From assembly GCA_002479215.1 (NCBI GenBank), contig DLME01000276.1, positions 5,835 through 18,161 on the forward strand: a DNA stretch of 12,327 nt, written 5' to 3'. How positions within the stretch are numbered: position 1 is the first letter of the stretch; each line of letters starts with the position of its first letter. Positions 5,760 to 12,253 of the stretch are shown one piece after another. The position numbers were made by a program, and so were the translations under genes. This DNA is from Syntrophaceae bacterium UBA7544 (GTDB lineage: Bacteria > Desulfobacterota > Syntrophia > Syntrophales > Smithellaceae). A model generated the notes under the pieces. That model did not search any database and was not told where the DNA came from. It was given only the letters and a program-made list of their open reading frames with translations.

Positions 5760-5786
5760 TTGACTAAAATGTTACTTTTTTATAAA
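5760..5786 (+). promoter_or_regulatory. promoter for the fluoride riboswitch / GTPase / HIT unit
   Basis: TTGACT (5760-5765), a 15-nt spacer and TATAAA (5781-5786) lie just upstream of the aptamer. Each hexamer matches 5 of 6 positions; the spacer is somewhat short. Predicted transcription would start around 5793, giving a short 5' tail before the aptamer at 5807. Confidence 0.55.
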
Positions 5787-5804
5787 TTTTGAATGAATTT
5801 ATAT

Positions 5805-5882
5805 CAGGTGATGGGGTTCACCTTATTTAACCGCCTTTGTTGCTGATAACTCCTACAGGAGATTAACCTGAAGGAGTTTTTT
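5805..5882 (+). ncRNA. fluoride riboswitch (crcB motif) 1, upstream of dynamin-like GTPase
   Basis: The conserved crcB-motif core is present. A first stem pairs GGTG (5807-5810) with CACC (5819-5822) around the loop ATGGGGTT. Then come AACCGCC (5829-5835) and the GCTGATAACTCCTAC segment (5842-5856). The loop GGGGTT (5813-5818) can pair with AACTCC (5848-5853), including one G-U, to form the pseudoknot that encloses fluoride in this family. The same AACTCC strand pairs alternatively with AGGAGTT (5872-5878), which contains the Shine-Dalgarno. Fluoride binding should therefore favour expression of the downstream gene (ON switch), as in known fluoride riboswitches. The recognition is from the conserved sequence and its near identity to the second copy at 8206. 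Confidence 0.93.
5848..5882 (+). terminator. riboswitch 1 expression platform: terminator-like hairpin that also hides the ribosome site
   Basis: AACTCCT (5848-5854) pairs perfectly with AGGAGTT (5872-5878). After one A-A mismatch, CAGG (5856-5859) pairs with CCTG (5867-5870), leaving a 7-nt loop. The hairpin runs straight into TTTTTT (5877-5882), giving intrinsic-terminator form. Its 3' arm contains AAGGAG, located 6 nt before the GTG start, so the hairpin can block translation as well as transcription. It is mutually exclusive with the aptamer pseudoknot because both need 5848-5853. Confidence 0.8.
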
Positions 5883-7550
5883 GTGGAAAATATCTCAGAC
5901 AAAATGACCCTTTCCCCGATCAGTAACCTTCTGCAGACTATTCATGATATCTCTGAACGCTTCCACCTTATCTCGCTTGCCCGCCAACTGGAGGCCGCGC
6001 AGAGTTTACTGGCACAGAATCCGCCTATTGATGTGGCCATTATGGGACAGTTCAAAGCAGGGAAAAGCTCTTTTCTTAACAGTCTGATTGGACAACCAGT
6101 TCTTCCCGTTGGCGCCATCCCGGTGACAACAGCCATTACCCGTCTGCAATATGGAAATATCGAGCGAGCAGTGGTCCGGCATTTCGACGGATTAACCACA
6201 GATGTATCACTTGCCGATATTGCAGAATTTACCTCGGAAGCTAAAAATCCAGGTAATCAAAAAAATGTCTCTATTGTGGATATTGCATTGCCGTCTCTTA
6301 AAAACTATGCCGGCTTACGTCTGGTGGACACGCCCGGGCTCGGTAGTGTTTATAAATATCACCAATCCACAGCCGAAAACTGGCTTCCCGCGGTGGGCAC
6401 TGCTTTGCTGGCAGTTAGCGCCGACCGGCCCCTCTCGGAACACGATCTGGAGCTTATCCGTGAATTAACAAGTCACACCCCGAATATTATTCTTCTTATG
6501 ACCAAAACCGATCTTCTCTCATCAGATCAGCAACAGGAGGTAATACAGTTTTTCAAGCAAACGCTGCAGCGGGAACTAAACCGGGAGTTGCCAGTATACT
6601 TATACTCAACACGCAATAAGACTGAACAATATAAAAAGCTCATCGAGGAAGAAATCCTCCATAAAATAAGTATAAACAGGGATTTTGAATTTCTGCGGAT
6701 TCTCCGGCACAAAACGCAATCCTTGTCTAAGAGCTGCCTCAGTTATCTGAACATCGCCCTGAAAACAGCTATACAGGCGGATCAGGATCGTGCCGGGCTG
6801 CATGAACAAATCCTCAATGAAAAAGTCAATGCGGATTTGATTCGTGAGGAATTGGGCCTCATCTCCCGGGAAAACCAGCGTCAGAGCCGTCCCCTGATCC
6901 AAACCTATCTAGAGCAGTTCCAGAAGCCATTGACAAAAAAGGTTAAGGGAAAACTGGAAAAAGATATGCCCGCGTGGAGGGGCAATCTCTGGAAACTATC
7001 AAGGCGCTATGAAGAATGGGTGTCCGAAACCATGACTGAAGAGATGCGCCAACTTTCCAAAGCCGAGCACCATAATTTTTTCGGTACCTTGAGAAAAGCT
7101 CATGCCAGCTTTACCCGATCACTGGAAGCTTTTCGTAAATTCCTCGCTGAAAATATTCAGAAAGTGCTCGGGGTAAAACTCGCGGAAGTAGATTGGAAGA
7201 TTGAAGTAGTTGAACCTGACCACCCTGACATCGCTTTTACCAGATCCTTTGATTTTCATCTGGACCTGATCTGGTTTCTCATCCCCATGTTTATTTTCAG
7301 GAAAATATTTGAGCGGCATTTCATCCACAGCATTCCGCGAGAGGTGGAAATCAATCTGTCCCGTCTGGCCTATCAGTGGGAAAAACGGATCAATACAGTA
7401 ATTGAGGCCATGAGAATCCAGGCAATTACTTATGTTCAGGAAGAACTCGCGACCATCGAAACACTGCTTTCTCAAACGCAAGGGAAGGCAAACGAAATCC
7501 ACCAGTTGATCGCTCAACTGGAAAATCAATCGGAAAGTTTGACAAAATAG
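5883..7550 (+). CDS. dynamin-like GTPase under fluoride riboswitch control
   Basis: Bacterial dynamin-superfamily GTPase, 555 residues. The G domain is complete: P-loop GQFKAGKSS (55-63), G2 threonines in PVTTAIT (80-86), G3 DTPGLGS (149-155) and G4 TKTD (207-210). A long helical, charged region follows (about 270-430), consistent with a dynamin stalk. Then a hydrophobic stretch LDLIWFLIPMFIFRKIF (460-476) may act as a membrane-insertion paddle or short hairpin. The C-terminal helix (495-550) is coiled-coil-like. Such proteins bind and remodel membranes or respond to membrane stress. The GTG start has AAGGAG 6 nt upstream, inside the riboswitch hairpin. The HIT gene follows 102 nt downstream on the same strand, probably in the same transcript. 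The substrate membrane and the reason for fluoride control are unknown. Confidence 0.9.
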   Translation: MENISDKMTLSPISNLLQTIHDISERFHLISLARQLEAAQSLLAQNPPIDVAIMGQFKAGKSSFLNSLIGQPVLPVGAIPVTTAITRLQYGNIERAVVRHFDGLTTDVSLADIAEFTSEAKNPGNQKNVSIVDIALPSLKNYAGLRLVDTPGLGSVYKYHQSTAENWLPAVGTALLAVSADRPLSEHDLELIRELTSHTPNIILLMTKTDLLSSDQQQEVIQFFKQTLQRELNRELPVYLYSTRNKTEQYKKLIEEEILHKISINRDFEFLRILRHKTQSLSKSCLSYLNIALKTAIQADQDRAGLHEQILNEKVNADLIREELGLISRENQRQSRPLIQTYLEQFQKPLTKKVKGKLEKDMPAWRGNLWKLSRRYEEWVSETMTEEMRQLSKAEHHNFFGTLRKAHASFTRSLEAFRKFLAENIQKVLGVKLAEVDWKIEVVEPDHPDIAFTRSFDFHLDLIWFLIPMFIFRKIFERHFIHSIPREVEINLSRLAYQWEKRINTVIEAMRIQAITYVQEELATIETLLSQTQGKANEIHQLIAQLENQSESLTK

Positions 7551-7652
7551 ATATAATTCATCTAAGTAAGAAAAGAATATAAATTCTGTTTTACTGAAAT
7601 GAAAAGTCATTTGTCATTTAATTGACCATCAATGCTGTGAAGGAGGCTGTAT

Positions 7653-8087
7653 ATGGCAGAAAAATCTGGTTGCGTTTTTTGCGACATTGTAGCGGGTAAG
7701 GCCAAGGCCTACAAAATTTATGAAGATGAACTATCCCTGTGCATTCTGGATATTCATCCCTATACAAAGGGACATTGCCTGGTCATCTCCAAAAGACACG
7801 TTCCCTGGTGGCATGAATTGACCGAGGAAGAAAATATAAGCCTCTTCAAGGTTGCCAAAATCATTGCTAATAAAATGATGGAGGCCTTTAAACCGGACTT
7901 TGTCTTTCTTTACGCCCGCGGCCGGAGAGTTCCCCATACTCATCTATTTCTCATACCCACTTACCACGGTGATGTTTTGGACCGGTTTTTTAATGCTTTG
8001 GAAAATTTTCAGGAAGCGCCTCAGATGCTGACAAAATTGAAAGATCCGGCAGAAATGGAAGAAGCTGCCCGGCTTCTTAAAATTTAG
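7653..8087 (+). CDS. HIT-family nucleotide hydrolase with altered histidine triad
   Basis: Histidine-triad (HIT) superfamily protein, 144 residues, cytoplasmic; relatives hydrolyse or transfer nucleotide phosphoramidates, dinucleoside polyphosphates or similar substrates. The N-terminal CVFCDIVAG (C7, C10) resembles the zinc-binding CxxC of many HIT proteins, followed by KIYEDE, LDIHPYTKGHCLVISKRH and the triad region VPHTHLFLIP. The canonical H-x-H-x-H reads H95-T-H97-L-F99: the middle, nucleophilic histidine is kept but the third is phenylalanine. A GGAGG Shine-Dalgarno sits 6 nt before the ATG. It follows the dynamin-like GTPase by 102 nt with no strong terminator between, so it is probably the second gene of the fluoride-controlled unit. 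A weak AAGAAGC/GCTTCTT stem (8059-8078) lies at its 3' end. Activity on any given nucleotide cannot be predicted. Confidence 0.87.
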   Translation: MAEKSGCVFCDIVAGKAKAYKIYEDELSLCILDIHPYTKGHCLVISKRHVPWWHELTEEENISLFKVAKIIANKMMEAFKPDFVFLYARGRRVPHTHLFLIPTYHGDVLDRFFNALENFQEAPQMLTKLKDPAEMEEAARLLKI

Positions 8088-8170: not shown

Positions 8171-8205
8171 CGCGCGTGCCGTAAAGATTTCATTGATTTC
8201 TCGCG

Positions 8206-8282
8206 CGGGTGATGGGGTTCACCTTTAACCGCCTTAATTGCTAATAACTCCTATCAATAATTATTTGTTTAGGAGTTATTTT
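8206..8282 (+). ncRNA. fluoride riboswitch (crcB motif) 2, upstream of CPA antiporter
   Basis: It has the same core as riboswitch 1: GGTG (8208-8211) pairs with CACC (8220-8223), the loop GGGGTT (8214-8219) pairs with AACTCC (8246-8251), and AACCGCC (8227-8233) lies between. Compared with copy 1, the linker between stem and AACCGCC is 3 nt shorter. The expression platform is AATAACTCCT (8243-8252), which pairs perfectly over 10 bp with AGGAGTTATT (8271-8280) and so masks the AGGAG ribosome site. No long T-tract follows, so control is most likely translational. An in-frame ATG at 8238 lies inside the aptamer and is not a real start. Confidence 0.93.
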
Positions 8283-9485
8283 ATGGACAGTATTTATACT
8301 CTTGCCGCCTTTTGGTTTTTAGCTGCCGTTTTATCAACCGTACTTGCCAACCGCCTCAAAATCTCAATAGCTTTAATGGAAATTATTGTCGGCGCAGTTG
8401 TCGGGTATGCAGCTTTCCATCTAAACTTTACCGACAAACTTTCCTTGAATGCCGACTGGTTAAAATTTTGCACGGGAGTCGGGGCTATTTTGCTTACATT
8501 TCTTGCAGGTGCGGAATTAAATCCTGATGTAATGAAATCCAAACTCAAAGAAGTATCAATTATTGGGTTCATTGGATTTCTCGCTCCTTTTATCGGTTGT
8601 TTCTTAATTGCATATTATCTGATTGGATGGGACATGCAAGCGAGTCTATTATGCGGTATTGCTCTTTCCACAACATCAATGGCCGTAGTTTACGCAGTAA
8701 TGCTGGAATATGGATTTAACACAACCGAATTCGGTAAAGGCATACTAGGGGCATGCTTCGTCAATGACTTGGGAACCGTCATCGGTTTAGGACTGATATT
8801 TGCCCCCTTCACATATAAAACGTTAATATTTATTTCAGTAACAATAGTTTTAATTTTTATTTTACCCTGGATCACGGATTTTCTTATAAGGCATTTCGCA
8901 TATAAAACAGCAGCAATTCGTGCAAAATGGATACTTTTTGTATTACTGTCAATGGGAGTACTTGCTTTATGGTCGGATAGTGAACCGGTCCTACCAGCCT
9001 ATGTAATAGGTATGCTATTAGCAAAAACTATGGAAAAAGATGGTCATTTTGTCAGAAGATTGAGGACTTTGACCGTTGGCTTTTTAACGCCGTTATATTT
9101 TTTAAGAGCTGGAGCTCTTATGTCAATACCTGCAGTTGTTGCAGCCCCTGTTATCTTTTTTGTACTCTTTGCCGGAAAAGTGGTTTCCAAGATCTTCGGA
9201 TTATATCCGATCATTCAAAATTTCAGAGATGACAAAAAAGAAAAATGGTATTATACATTGCTCATGTCAACCGGTTTGACGTTTGGAACTATATCCGCAC
9301 TATTTGGATTGTCACATAATATTATTTCTCAAGCGCAGTATTCTTACATTGTCGGCGTAGTAATTGCCAGTGCTGTGGTACCAACACTTATAGCCAATAA
9401 ATTTTTCTTACCCAAACATTTACTCGAGGAACCGGTTTTAGATGATCAGGCACCCGATGAAAAAGATATTATTAATAAATTGTAA
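8283..9485 (+). CDS. CPA-superfamily cation/proton antiporter, fluoride-controlled
   Basis: Monovalent cation/proton antiporter (CPA) family integral membrane protein, 400 residues from this ATG, with about 11-13 hydrophobic helices. Family landmarks are LLTFLAGAELNPD (70-82), the broken-helix segment ALSTTSMA (127-134), N161-D162 in CFVNDLGT at the ion-binding position, and GLTFGTISA near the end. The short C-terminal tail is polar, with no TrkA-N domain, so it is unlike full KefB/KefC. The ATG at 8283 has AGGAG 7 nt upstream. The Shine-Dalgarno lies in the riboswitch hairpin. CPA genes downstream of fluoride riboswitches are a known association and are thought to help fluoride tolerance, although the transported ion is not settled by sequence. 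It is convergent with tupC, with a 28-bp gap and no clear terminator in between. Confidence 0.9.
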   Translation: MDSIYTLAAFWFLAAVLSTVLANRLKISIALMEIIVGAVVGYAAFHLNFTDKLSLNADWLKFCTGVGAILLTFLAGAELNPDVMKSKLKEVSIIGFIGFLAPFIGCFLIAYYLIGWDMQASLLCGIALSTTSMAVVYAVMLEYGFNTTEFGKGILGACFVNDLGTVIGLGLIFAPFTYKTLIFISVTIVLIFILPWITDFLIRHFAYKTAAIRAKWILFVLLSMGVLALWSDSEPVLPAYVIGMLLAKTMEKDGHFVRRLRTLTVGFLTPLYFLRAGALMSIPAVVAAPVIFFVLFAGKVVSKIFGLYPIIQNFRDDKKEKWYYTLLMSTGLTFGTISALFGLSHNIISQAQYSYIVGVVIASAVVPTLIANKFFLPKHLLEEPVLDDQAPDEKDIINKL

Positions 9486-9513: not shown

Positions 9514-10605
9514 TTACTTTTCCCGCCGCATAACGTGAACGGCAGTAGCCTTGAAAGAAGTGATTATAGAAGCTCCCTCTTCCAATTGTAAATCTTCGCA
9601 GGAAGGCTGTGTAATATATGCAGTCAATGAAAAACCGCAATCCAAAACGAGTTTATAAAAAAAGCCCTGCCGGACAATTTTCTGAACTTTTGCCTCAAAG
9701 ACATTACGCGCGCTTATTTTGCCTTGCGTATCTTTAGAAACCGTAACATTCTCTGGACGCACACAACAAAACACTTTTTGCCCGGCGGAAGAGTTTCCTA
9801 CGGCTTCAATGACTTTGCTATTAATAGAAATTTCCATGAGGCCATTGGCATTATTTTTGACAGTGCCTTCCAATACAGATTCTGTTCCAACGAAGTTAGC
9901 GATAAATTCATCGGCCGGCTGATTAAATATTTTCGCTGTTGTTCCCGATTGCACAATTTTACCGCTGTCCATAAAAGCAACATCCTGCGCCAGACGCAGT
10001 GTTTCTTCTCGGTCGTGCAACGCCATCACGGCGGTGATTTTTGTTTCCTTTAAAATCCTCTGCAAATCGTCAATTACCGCTTCCCGTGTTGGCGGATCAA
10101 GAGAATTAAAGGGTTCATCAAGCAAAATCAGTTGGGGTTTAAGGGCAAAAGCGCGCGCCAGCGACACCCTCCTGGCTTCGCCCCCGGAAAGCGATTTCGC
10201 CGATCTTTTTTCCAGTTGAGCGATTCCAAAATAATCCAATGATTCGCCAACACGCTTTTTGATTTCATCCTTTTTGCCTTTTCGAAACTTCAAACCAAGA
10301 GCAATATTCTCATGAACCGAACAGCTAAGAAGTAAAGGCTCTTGAAAAACAACGGCTGCATTGCGGCGCAACATCATGCGATCGACATGGGAATTGATGA
10401 GCATATCTTGAAAATAAAGTTGCCCTTGCCAGGGTTTCAACAAACCAGCCATAGTTAAAATGGTCGTCGACTTCCCGGCACCGTTGGGTCCGATCAAAGC
10501 GAATATTTTCCCCCGTTCAACAGTAAGTTCACTAATATTCAACACAGTTACGTCACCGCGCTGAACAAGAAGGTTTTCTATTTTTATTATATTCTCGACT
10601 TTCAT
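9514..10605 (-). CDS. tupC: tungstate ABC transporter ATPase TupC
   Basis: ATP-binding subunit of the tungstate importer, cytoplasmic, 363 residues. The ABC domain is complete: Walker A GPNGAGKST (39-47), Q-loop Q88, signature LSGGE (139-143), Walker B LILLDEPF (159-166), D-loop and switch H197. After about residue 235, a C-terminal TOBE-type domain (roughly 240-363) carries the oxyanion-regulatory or dimer region seen in molybdate/tungstate ATPases. The start ATG overlaps the tupB stop (ATGA), so the two are translationally coupled. Identification as TupC rather than ModC rests on the adjoining tupA. The gene is convergent with the antiporter. Confidence 0.9.
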   Translation of the reverse strand: MKVENIIKIENLLVQRGDVTVLNISELTVERGKIFALIGPNGAGKSTTILTMAGLLKPWQGQLYFQDMLINSHVDRMMLRRNAAVVFQEPLLLSCSVHENIALGLKFRKGKKDEIKKRVGESLDYFGIAQLEKRSAKSLSGGEARRVSLARAFALKPQLILLDEPFNSLDPPTREAVIDDLQRILKETKITAVMALHDREETLRLAQDVAFMDSGKIVQSGTTAKIFNQPADEFIANFVGTESVLEGTVKNNANGLMEISINSKVIEAVGNSSAGQKVFCCVRPENVTVSKDTQGKISARNVFEAKVQKIVRQGFFYKLVLDCGFSLTAYITQPSCEDLQLEEGASIITSFKATAVHVMRREK

Positions 10606-11300
10606 CGCGGGCGTTGCCTTTGCTGTATCTGGGTAAGAACAAGGTTAACCATAAAAGCAAGCAGTAGTAGTATGATGCCCAAAGCTATCGCCACATCAAA
10701 ATTACCTTTGCCTGTTTCCATAACCGTTGCCGTGGTTAGTACTCGTGAGTAGCCCTTAATGTTGCCGCCGACCATAATCGAAGCGCCTACTTCGGAAATC
10801 ACTCCCCCAAAACCGGCCATCACGGCGGCCAAAAGCGGCAAACGCGCTTCTTTGATCAATACCCACACCATTTGTAATCTGGTCGCTCCGAGCGACAAAA
10901 TCTGTAAACGGAGATTTTCCGGCAGCTGCTGAATGGCGGCAAGGGATATACCCATAATAATAGGCGTGGCGATAATAGCCTGGGCAATAATAATGGCCAA
11001 AGGCGTATAAAGGATTTCTAAAAACCCGAAAGGTCCGTTGCGCCAAATCATAATAGTCACAAAAAGACCGACAACCACCGGAGGCAGACCCATTCCCGTA
11101 TTAATCAGACTAATGACGAACTTCCTGCCTCGAAAATTAGCCAGCGCAACCACCGTACCCGCCGATACACCAAGGACCAGACTGATGAACGTTGCCAATC
11201 CGGAGACTTGCAGCGAGAGCAAGGTTATTCCCAGCACTTCCGGATCAAGACTGACGATTAATTCAAAAGCCTTTTTTATGCCTTCTAGTATTAATTCCAC
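10602..11300 (-). CDS. tupB: tungstate ABC transporter permease TupB
   Basis: Inner-membrane permease of the tungstate importer, 232 residues, with about five or six transmembrane helices. The cytoplasmic EAA-loop that docks on the ATPase is visible as LSLGATRLQMVWVLIKEARLPLL-type sequence at about 136-157 (G138 and the terminal LP). The GLPPVVVG motif (71-78) is typical of oxyanion permeases. The start is GTG with an AGGA Shine-Dalgarno about 9 nt upstream. It follows tupA after 80 nt and overlaps tupC by 4 nt. It pairs two by two with TupC and receives tungstate from TupA. Confidence 0.91.
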   Translation of the reverse strand: MELILEGIKKAFELIVSLDPEVLGITLLSLQVSGLATFISLVLGVSAGTVVALANFRGRKFVISLINTGMGLPPVVVGLFVTIMIWRNGPFGFLEILYTPLAIIIAQAIIATPIIMGISLAAIQQLPENLRLQILSLGATRLQMVWVLIKEARLPLLAAVMAGFGGVISEVGASIMVGGNIKGYSRVLTTATVMETGKGNFDVAIALGIILLLLAFMVNLVLTQIQQRQRPR

Positions 11301-11337
11301 TTTTTAAATCCTGTAAAAACAACAGCAACGCCTAAGC

Positions 11338-11365
11338 CTTGAAAAAACTGAACCCGTTTTTCAAG
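11338..11365 (-). other. intercistronic stem-loop between tupA and tupB
   Basis: CTTGAAAAA (11338-11346) is perfectly complementary to TTTTTCAAG (11357-11365), with a loop of about 10 nt, between the tupA stop and the tupB start. No T-tract follows the stem on the minus strand, so it may stabilise the tupA mRNA or partly attenuate downstream expression rather than terminate fully. Confidence 0.5.
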
Positions 11366-11380
11366 CACTCATTTATTGAT

Positions 11381-12253
11381 TTATTTTCCCAGTTCTTCCA
11401 GCGTCTTTCCCGCATCAGGGAAAAACAAAGGCGATCCGTATTTATCGACACCAAATTTTTTAATAATAGTTTGCGTTTTTGCGGAAACCATGAAATCGGC
11501 AAATGCCCTCGCGCCTTTGGCATTGGCTTTCGGCCATTTGTCGGCATTAACTTCGATTACATGATAAATATTGAGCAGAGCGGCATCCCCTTCCACTAAA
11601 ATATCCATACCCAGATTTTTTTTCATGGCCAAATATGTTCCGCTATCGGCAAGAGTATAGCCTTTTTTCTCGGCAGCAACATTAAGAGTTTGCCCCATGC
11701 CTAACCCGGTTTGCTGATACCATTTCTGCCCTTCAGGATTTACTCCGGCAGCCTTCCATAATTTTTTTTCCTGAGAGTGCGTCCCGGAATTATCACCTCT
11801 GGACATAAACAAAGCGCTTGTCTCGGCTATTTTCTTAAACGCTTCCACAGCCAAATTCGTATCTTTTATTTTTGCTTGATCGGCACTTGGACCAACAATA
11901 ATGAAGTCGTTATGCATAACCAGACGCCTGTTGATTCCAAACCCATCAGCTATAAACTTCTTTTCCGCATCGGGTGAATGAACAAGCAGAACATCGGCTT
12001 CCCCTTTTTGCCCCATGGCCATGGCCTGTCCTGAACCAACGGCAATAGTCTTTACAAAATAACCCGTCTTTTCTTCAAATAGCGGAATCAAAATATCCAG
12101 AAGTCCGGTATCCTGAGTACTTGTCGTCGTGGCTAAAATTATATTTTTTTGCTTTGGCTGAGATTGGGCAGCGCTAGCAGATGAAACGCTAAATGCTAAT
12201 AACGTTATTGTCGATAAAAATATTATTAATTTAATTGTCTTTAATTTTTCCAT
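11381..12253 (-). CDS. tupA: tungstate-binding periplasmic protein TupA
   Basis: Substrate-binding protein of the tungstate importer, 290 residues. A signal peptide covers about residues 1-28 (basic start, hydrophobic core, ASA cleavage site), so the product is periplasmic. TTTS (42-45) in ILATTTSTQDTGLLD is the oxyanion-contact motif typical of TupA, differing from ModA. AVGSGQAMAMGQ (71-82) and SRGDNSGTH (151-159) supply further conserved binding-cleft segments. AGGAG lies about 6 nt before the ATG. It heads tupABC. Tungsten in such organisms serves formate dehydrogenases and aldehyde oxidoreductases. The 74 nt upstream in the window show no clear promoter or molybdenum/tungsten cofactor riboswitch. 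Confidence 0.95.
   Translation of the reverse strand: MEKLKTIKLIIFLSTITLLAFSVSSASAAQSQPKQKNIILATTTSTQDTGLLDILIPLFEEKTGYFVKTIAVGSGQAMAMGQKGEADVLLVHSPDAEKKFIADGFGINRRLVMHNDFIIVGPSADQAKIKDTNLAVEAFKKIAETSALFMSRGDNSGTHSQEKKLWKAAGVNPEGQKWYQQTGLGMGQTLNVAAEKKGYTLADSGTYLAMKKNLGMDILVEGDAALLNIYHVIEVNADKWPKANAKGARAFADFMVSAKTQTIIKKFGVDKYGSPLFFPDAGKTLEELGK

Follow-up and report, generated by a model that had tools for sequence, protein, structure and literature searches.

We examined a 12,327-nucleotide stretch of contig DLME01000276.1 from the draft genome of Syntrophaceae bacterium UBA7544 (hereafter, the window), in which a gene for a dynamin-like GTPase lies directly behind a fluoride riboswitch (Table 1). 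A first-pass annotation had described a full crcB-motif aptamer upstream of a complete dynamin-superfamily GTPase, followed on the same strand by a gene of the histidine triad (HIT) family, and all three were recovered: the aptamer matches positions 1-64 of the 64-position RF01734 model, the GTPase occupies a 555-codon frame from the GTG at 5883 to the stop ending at 7550, and the HIT gene follows it. A second fluoride riboswitch had been overlooked; it precedes a gene for a CPA2-type cation/proton antiporter (CPA). Both riboswitch matches exceed the family cut-off of 34 bits, and the same two were the only RF01734 matches in the 2.98-Mb draft genome (listed completeness 93.8%) at E 0.001. The promoter-like site just 5′ of aptamer 1 is close to unchanged in L100, the closest named relative; sites of this class number 9 in the scanned stretch against 5.0 in shuffles, and the site is thus weak when taken alone. 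The antiporter frame has an alternative TTG start at 8238 in the list of open reading frames, which falls inside switch 2.

Table 1. Features of the fluoride-riboswitch locus, numbered from the first letter of the window; A1 is the GTPase search profile described in the text.
Feature	Position	Strand	Evidence
Promoter-like site TTGACT-17-TAAATT before switch 1	5760..5788	+	9/12 consensus letters
Fluoride riboswitch aptamer 1	5798..5862	+	RF01734, 51.5 bits, E 4.4e-12
Expression platform of switch 1 (terminator-like stem 5848-5878 and U-run to 5882)	5848..5882	+	Fold, layout conservation
Dynamin-like GTPase, 555 aa, GTG start	5883..7550	+	PF00350 (Dynamin_N) 88.8 bits, cut-off 27; predicted bacterial-dynamin-like fold
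P-loop GQFKAGKSS, residues 55-63	6045..6071	+	8/9 columns invariant in A1, the remaining one nearly
G3 motif DTPG, residues 149-152	6327..6338	+	Invariant in A1
G4 motif TKTD, residues 207-210	6501..6512	+	T207, K208 and D210 invariant in A1
Conserved hydrophobic stretch, residues 461-480, candidate membrane-inserting tip	7263..7322	+	11 invariant columns in A1
HIT-family protein, 144 aa, motif PHTHLF	7653..8087	+	PF01230 61.3 bits
Fluoride riboswitch aptamer 2	8199..8260	+	RF01734, 49.4 bits, E 2.2e-11
Stem pairing the switch-2 pseudoknot strand with GGAG before the antiporter gene	8243..8280	+	Fold of 8225-8285, -13.6 kcal/mol, z -4.6
CPA2-type cation/proton antiporter, ATG start	8283..9485	+	PF00999 111.9 bits; TIGR00932 97.8 bits, under its cut-off of 238.3

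The two window aptamers were aligned with 35 others, all chosen by Rfam score. Across these 37 aptamers, 93.5% of cells were paired, compared with 87.6% in shuffles, with P1 at 100%, the pseudoknot at 99.5% and P3 as a whole at 78.9%, the lower part of P3 being what stays conserved. Covariation was apparent: 6 of the 13 pairs varied at both positions, compared with 3.2 after shuffling. The pseudoknot strand AACUCC (ACUCC) can alternatively pair with GGAGUU just 5′ of the start codon, in a stem that includes the Shine-Dalgarno (SD) sequence and that, in switch 1, has a U-run behind it. The first-pass annotation had placed the ribosome site within the switch, and the SD sequence AAGGAG (5871-5876) indeed forms part of the 3′ arm of a stem in which the pseudoknot strand of the aptamer supplies the 5′ arm. 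The 41 nucleotides (nt) from 5845 to 5885 fold with -14.4 kcal/mol (z -4.5), and six U residues (5877-5882) reach up to the GTPase start codon. The platform stem of switch 1 shares the ACUCC strand with the aptamer, and the sequence itself shows the two alternative pairings. Within 18 sequences selected for this layout, 92.4% of the cells of the platform stem were paired; covariation in the terminator stem was weak, with one pair changed on both sides, and the support lies in conservation of the layout in these layout-selected sequences. The terminator of switch 1 was not listed by a simple terminator scan. A simple pattern script, applied to the window and 66 named loci with a close upstream switch, found a run of at least four U behind the pseudoknot-strand partner in 38 of 67 sequences, and the partner itself 3-14 nt before the start in 23 of the same 67. 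As judged from full-length score, conserved and covarying helices and pseudoknot, and competing platform, both window elements belong to RF01734.

The gene product behind switch 1 carries the G1, G3 and G4 motifs with a Dynamin_N domain (motif patterns in the GTPase survey were matched anywhere in the protein). Its predicted structure (pLDDT 80.5, pTM 0.67) places a GTPase head on a long helical neck or trunk, and its alignments with BDLP and IniA span 478-479 residues. In the structure search the head domain by itself also drew numerous small GTPases, and only long matches were used. With its GTPase motifs kept, the protein is predicted to be bacterial-dynamin-like, and its residues 461-480 are a candidate membrane-inserting tip, through which it may act on membranes. 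A role in LeoA-type phage defence was considered and not adopted; PADLOC returned a LeoA match of 60 residues for the window GTPase at 28.5 bits, and one of 60.7 bits for a diverged member, L049.

The pairing of riboswitch and GTPase recurs. In 155 genomes of the order (Syntrophales), a switch search was crossed by position with a search using the GTPase profile A1; the RNA filters were tightened whenever a search covered more than 40 genomes. A1 has 18 rows, 13 of them from genes behind switches, and its matches above 700 bits form one clade, so that the counts are not independent events. Among 51 such full-length matches from 49 genomes, a same-strand switch lies no more than 300 nt upstream in 49 (48 over the cut-off) and within 100 nt in 47. 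Included in the 49 is G002, the switch of which reaches only 22.8 bits. The two switch-less matches are G133:C141, which begins at residue 56, apparently at a contig end (L164 in the named set below), and G150:C130, which corresponds in place to L139, a locus where the terminator-like stem and SD sequence are kept and no aptamer match is found. Among genomes with a GTPase match above 100 bits, 55 of 56 have an over-cut-off switch; for the genomes without such a match the figure is 15 of 99 (Fisher p 8.5e-27, computed on related and hence non-independent genomes). Conversely, 54 of the order's 113 over-cut-off switches stand directly before the GTPase or its 5′ fragment; the genes behind the remaining 59 were classified in part only. 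Weaker matches (40 bits or less), presumed to be other GTPases, comprise 51 rows, of which 41 were checked; the ten left out, nine second pieces of already listed genes and the short piece G089:C103, are all on contigs without a listed switch. Two of the 41 are near a switch, and both are pieces of the window GTPase family.

At L100:5733-5990 (G002:C1), about 180 nt with 21-nt inverted ends split the GTPase aptamer within P3; both halves are present and, by eye, nearly identical to the window, and the split switch might function with a long added hairpin. At G026:C6, the GTPase match behind a fluoride switch (78676-78798) covers only the final 40 or so residues of the protein (78855-78916) and is probably a decayed second copy.

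A second set comprised the best 80 of 146 loci of GTPase relatives in named genomes. Genes were called as longest frames, by which the GTPase frame was not called in L129, L133, L154 and L177, and neighbour-gene clusters were named from Pfam tests of one or few members each. A switch lies within 250 nt in 64 of 69 loci of the deltaproteobacterial type. The other five are L131 and L163, where the same-strand switch lies 0.9 and 2.3 kb upstream with a prenyltransferase-repeat or enolase gene in between, L164 and L167, which begin at a contig edge, and L139, which has a switch remnant. Eleven far loci (37-41% identity) extend the link to Spirochaetota, Bacillota and Chlorobiota, with switch, enolase, antiporter or CrcB genes 5′ of the GTPase. 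An Rfam-level switch is upstream on the same strand in seven of them, directly so in L175 and L177 and at 1.5-2.9 kb in L169, L171, L174, L176 and L179, and L170 and L172 have weak upstream matches (27 bits) from model R2 alone. Since R2 was trained on the 37 aptamers, of which 7 come from far loci and some of the rest lie on contigs also present in the named set, the Rfam result is the independent one there. The gene orders are CPA-enolase-x-GTPase in Spirochaetota L169 and L171; switch, enolase, small gene and GTPase in Syntrophomonas palmitatica JCM 14374 (L174); enolase-GTPase in Chlorobiota L179; and CrcB-CrcB-x-GTPase-CPA-Usp in Clostridia L176. These runs would presumably be single transcripts. 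A phylum sample of 395 genomes, searched with a distance limit of 400 nt and yielding counts that are lower bounds, gave a listed switch within that limit in at least 18 of 21 loci of the close group (above 700 bits) and at least 7 of 12 of the middle group (450-700 bits); at least six of the eight remaining loci have a switch 0.6-2.3 kb upstream on the same strand, and two are on contigs without a listed switch.

The association also reaches a diverged set of proteins, mostly of about 600 residues, that score 100-180 bits with the GTPase profile; one tested member matches Dynamin_N at 103.3 bits. Fifty-one loci were fetched, G430:C36, a piece of a split gene, being left out of 52 rows. With model R2, a switch is directly upstream in 38 of the 51, at 30 bits or more in 31 of these; by Rfam, at least 23 of 52 have one among the matches listed. 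Three of the order's own five diverged matches have a switch upstream, and in G082 and G090 it lies behind the gene. In a tree that gives a rough pattern only (quick method, rows under 450 residues dropped, L177 absent, L198 in a wrong frame and on a very long branch), most subclades are uniform in having or lacking the switch, with at least six changes. The switch-less members L269 and L270 match DUF6062 at their C-termini (34.0 and 29.6 bits, cut-off 27), and in 4 of 76 named loci a DUF6062-cluster gene shares a same-strand run with the GTPase; gene fusion and adjacency hint that the two proteins work together.

Recurrence across the order, the named genomes and the diverged group rules out chance adjacency. 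The wider alternative, that the neighbourhood is fortuitous or the switch decayed and without function, could appeal to single damaged cases only (the L100 insertion and the L139 remnant), and against pairings of 49/51, 64/69 and 38/51, covarying aptamers and a conserved expression platform we regard its probability as negligible. By its recurrent placement behind switches and in gene runs with known members, the GTPase is a candidate member of the fluoride resistance regulon.

Partner genes are more variable. In 76 loci, the same-strand run with the GTPase contains enolase in 16, HIT in 12 and CPA in 12, with HIT, enolase, Usp or CrcB genes found in the same run at related loci, and 23 of the 76 have no same-strand gene within 350 nt after the GTPase. 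The suggested GTPase-HIT module proved too narrow: HIT is one of several changing partners, and with only 12 of 76 runs the pair was rejected as the core unit. The usual HIT motif is HxHxH; the HIT proteins of these loci (the window and 15 cluster members) have PHTH followed by two hydrophobic residues in 16 of 16 and are perhaps a distinct subgroup. That HIT clears adenylate-fluoride, an idea prompted by work on HIT enzymes, is a guess for which our literature search found no supporting paper. At 9 of 76 GTPase loci (L101, L108, L111, L116 and others) the same-strand run includes a small AAA-type ATPase (about 210-250 aa), and a prenyltransferase-repeat protein of about 280 aa, with a Pfam match in two members, occurs in L031, L101, L113, L131, L160 and L166 (6 of 76 runs).

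These neighbourhoods bear on an alternative in which the protein is an ordinary GTPase, inhibited by complexes of fluoro-metals with GDP and overmade so that some stays active, as has been proposed for enolase. Aluminium and magnesium fluorides (AlFx, MgFx) do mimic the gamma-phosphate in GTPases, and enolase is the frequent neighbour just described, inside a switch-led run in several relatives. Some bacteria, according to the available text of a 2024 review (PMC11139923), answer enolase inhibition with more enzyme. Such titration presupposes, however, a basal copy needed without fluoride, and the GTPase family is nearly absent from the switch-less genomes of the order; the window genome has a single match to it, behind the switch. 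Enolase, unlike the GTPase family, is also found in genomes or on contigs without a switch, and the one enolase match of the window genome is on another contig. The 23 loci with nothing following on the same strand within 350 nt likewise speak against it. Because the GTPase family hardly exists in the order without a switch, we consider this explanation, which the first-pass annotation had also raised, unlikely.

The fluoride setting of the genomes was also surveyed. Of the order's 155 genomes, 4 have a CrcB match and 51 a CLC match above the respective cut-off; the window's own draft genome has a match to neither, as do 39 of the 56 GTPase genomes (incomplete drafts). The GTPase might be a transport partner, arranging or shielding the antiporter or some other membrane exporter in organisms without Fluc or CLC-F, consistent with these 39 genomes and with the 12 loci that have CPA in the run. 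Many GTPase loci are, however, without a nearby CPA or CrcB gene, CrcB and GTPase share one run in L176, and the genomes surveyed are incomplete drafts; on balance this role appears quite unlikely. No association between absence of CLC and presence of the GTPase emerged when tested (CLC in 16/56 GTPase genomes vs 35/99 others, Fisher p 0.48). As CLC is not significantly rarer with the GTPase, the scarcity of CrcB and CLC is a setting and no proof of replacement.

The reading that we favour, and hold to be reasonably probable, is that this is a fluoride-defence locus, in which a fluoride-induced dynamin protects membranes while the antiporter serves pH and ion balance. In the standard model of the fluoride riboswitch class, the bound aptamer keeps its pseudoknot and blocks the terminator or anti-SD stem, giving an on-switch. 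Applied here, fluoride binding would hold the ACUCC strand in the pseudoknot, the terminator/anti-SD stem could not close, and the gene would be made only with fluoride. Switch 1 would thereby control a GTPase acting at the inner membrane, where it would most likely keep membranes intact, or remodel them, while hydrogen fluoride (HF) crosses and the proton gradient falls; switch 2 would control the CPA2-type antiporter. The available parts of the 2024 review describe HF as entering via the membrane and lowering the proton gradient, and, as far as the accessible accounts go, DynA of Bacillus subtilis is a dynamin-superfamily protein that protects membranes under insult, and IniA cuts membranes, its overexpression conferring some isoniazid resistance and its loss having only a marginal effect. 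Membrane upkeep under HF stress fits the GTPase because the bacterial dynamins studied so far guard membranes and HF crosses them.

Several observations weigh against this reading. The full-length structural matches are loose, with a root-mean-square deviation of about 10 Å and Foldseek TM-scores of 0.39 (IniA) and 0.44 (BDLP). The hydrophobic stretch 461-480, before a long helix, lies partly in a low-confidence region of the model (pLDDT about 50 in part), and by eye a clearly similar stretch appears in only L269 among six diverged sequences. No upstream switch was found in far loci L173 and L178 by the Rfam and R2 searches, and 13 of 51 diverged loci, mostly in whole subclades, are switch-less. 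In the order, 15 of 70 switch-bearing genomes are without the GTPase, and fluoride defence is therefore possible without it. The genomes compared are, moreover, related and hence not independent.

Fluoro-metals trap GTPases, which suggests another role for the ion: metal fluoride with GDP could lock assembled dynamin in a state resembling the transition state, which would coat and stiffen membranes and slow HF entry. The dynamin-type fold with its kept GTPase motifs, and a gene placed behind a switch for the same ion that could lock its product, are in keeping with this idea; fluoro-metal trapping is, however, a generic property of GTPases, and we judge the idea distinctly improbable. Its boldest form, with fluoride as both inducer and working ligand, metal fluoride and GDP trapping the dynamin on the membrane, and the coat limiting HF entry so as to replace an exporter where Fluc and CLC-F are lacking, seems very improbable.

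The preferred reading, membrane protection by a fluoride-induced dynamin, can be set beside known systems. The locus shares with the described fluoride riboswitch regulon the aptamer, the terminator- or SD-overlapping platform, and nearby partners such as an Na+/H+-type antiporter, enolase, CrcB, MutS-like proteins and Usp. It differs in its dynamin-like GTPase, which is unnamed in the accessible gene lists of Weinberg 2010, a 2020 review and the 2024 review. The first-pass annotation likewise counted no dynamin-like GTPase among the usual targets. A literature search connecting fluoride riboswitches or fluoride resistance to dynamin, GTPase or histidine triad proteins turned up no paper that suggests the link or names a dynamin as a target, within partial texts that did not cover Baker 2012 or supplementary material, so that a mention in a gene table is possible. 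Fluoride defence, as far as the 2024 review could be consulted, comprises export of the ion, control of pH and ion balance, adjustments of phosphate and metabolism (more enolase among them), and responses to oxidative stress. From its accessible description, the FRM operon of Enterobacter cloacae (ppaC, uspA, eno, gpmA, crcB, orf5249) is likewise a fluoride-switch operon with enolase and Usp and with reported resistance, but its six genes include neither dynamin nor HIT.

Among bacterial dynamins, IniA of mycobacteria shows 16% identity over the aligned part, and its family is only a distant match (E 1.6e-16 over residues 31-214), to which the window protein was not assigned; the sources available describe IniA as induced by tuberculosis drugs, and no fluoride link was seen in them. 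BDLP of Nostoc and the pair of dynamin-like proteins (DLPs) of Campylobacter share the bacterial dynamin fold of GTPase head and helical trunk. According to the partial accounts available, the two Campylobacter DLPs function together and the majority of bacterial DLP genes occur in operon pairs, whereas the window has a single GTPase gene behind its switch. DynA belongs to the same superfamily and is reported to protect membranes under insult, but its NCBIfam model gives the window protein 37.1 bits against a cut-off of 1600.

The many anaerobic bacteria with a dynamin-like GTPase behind a fluoride switch point to a little-noticed membrane arm of fluoride defence. If so, that arm would stand behind nearly half of the order's over-cut-off switches, and bacterial dynamins would gain a defined chemical trigger available on demand.

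Other arrangements were noted at these loci. Tandem pairs of proteins of 498-562 residues from one cluster, of which one tested member matches MutS domain V, lie behind fluoride switches in L104, L105, L138, L170, L172 and L176. Pairs of fluoride switches on opposite strands and facing apart occur in L136, L137, L138, L251, L252, L260 and L261. In the window, ABC transporter genes on the other strand (9514-12253) converge on the antiporter gene; their best NCBIfam matches are tungstate transporters, under the cut-offs, and relatives of these genes occupy the same place in G001, G003 and G006.

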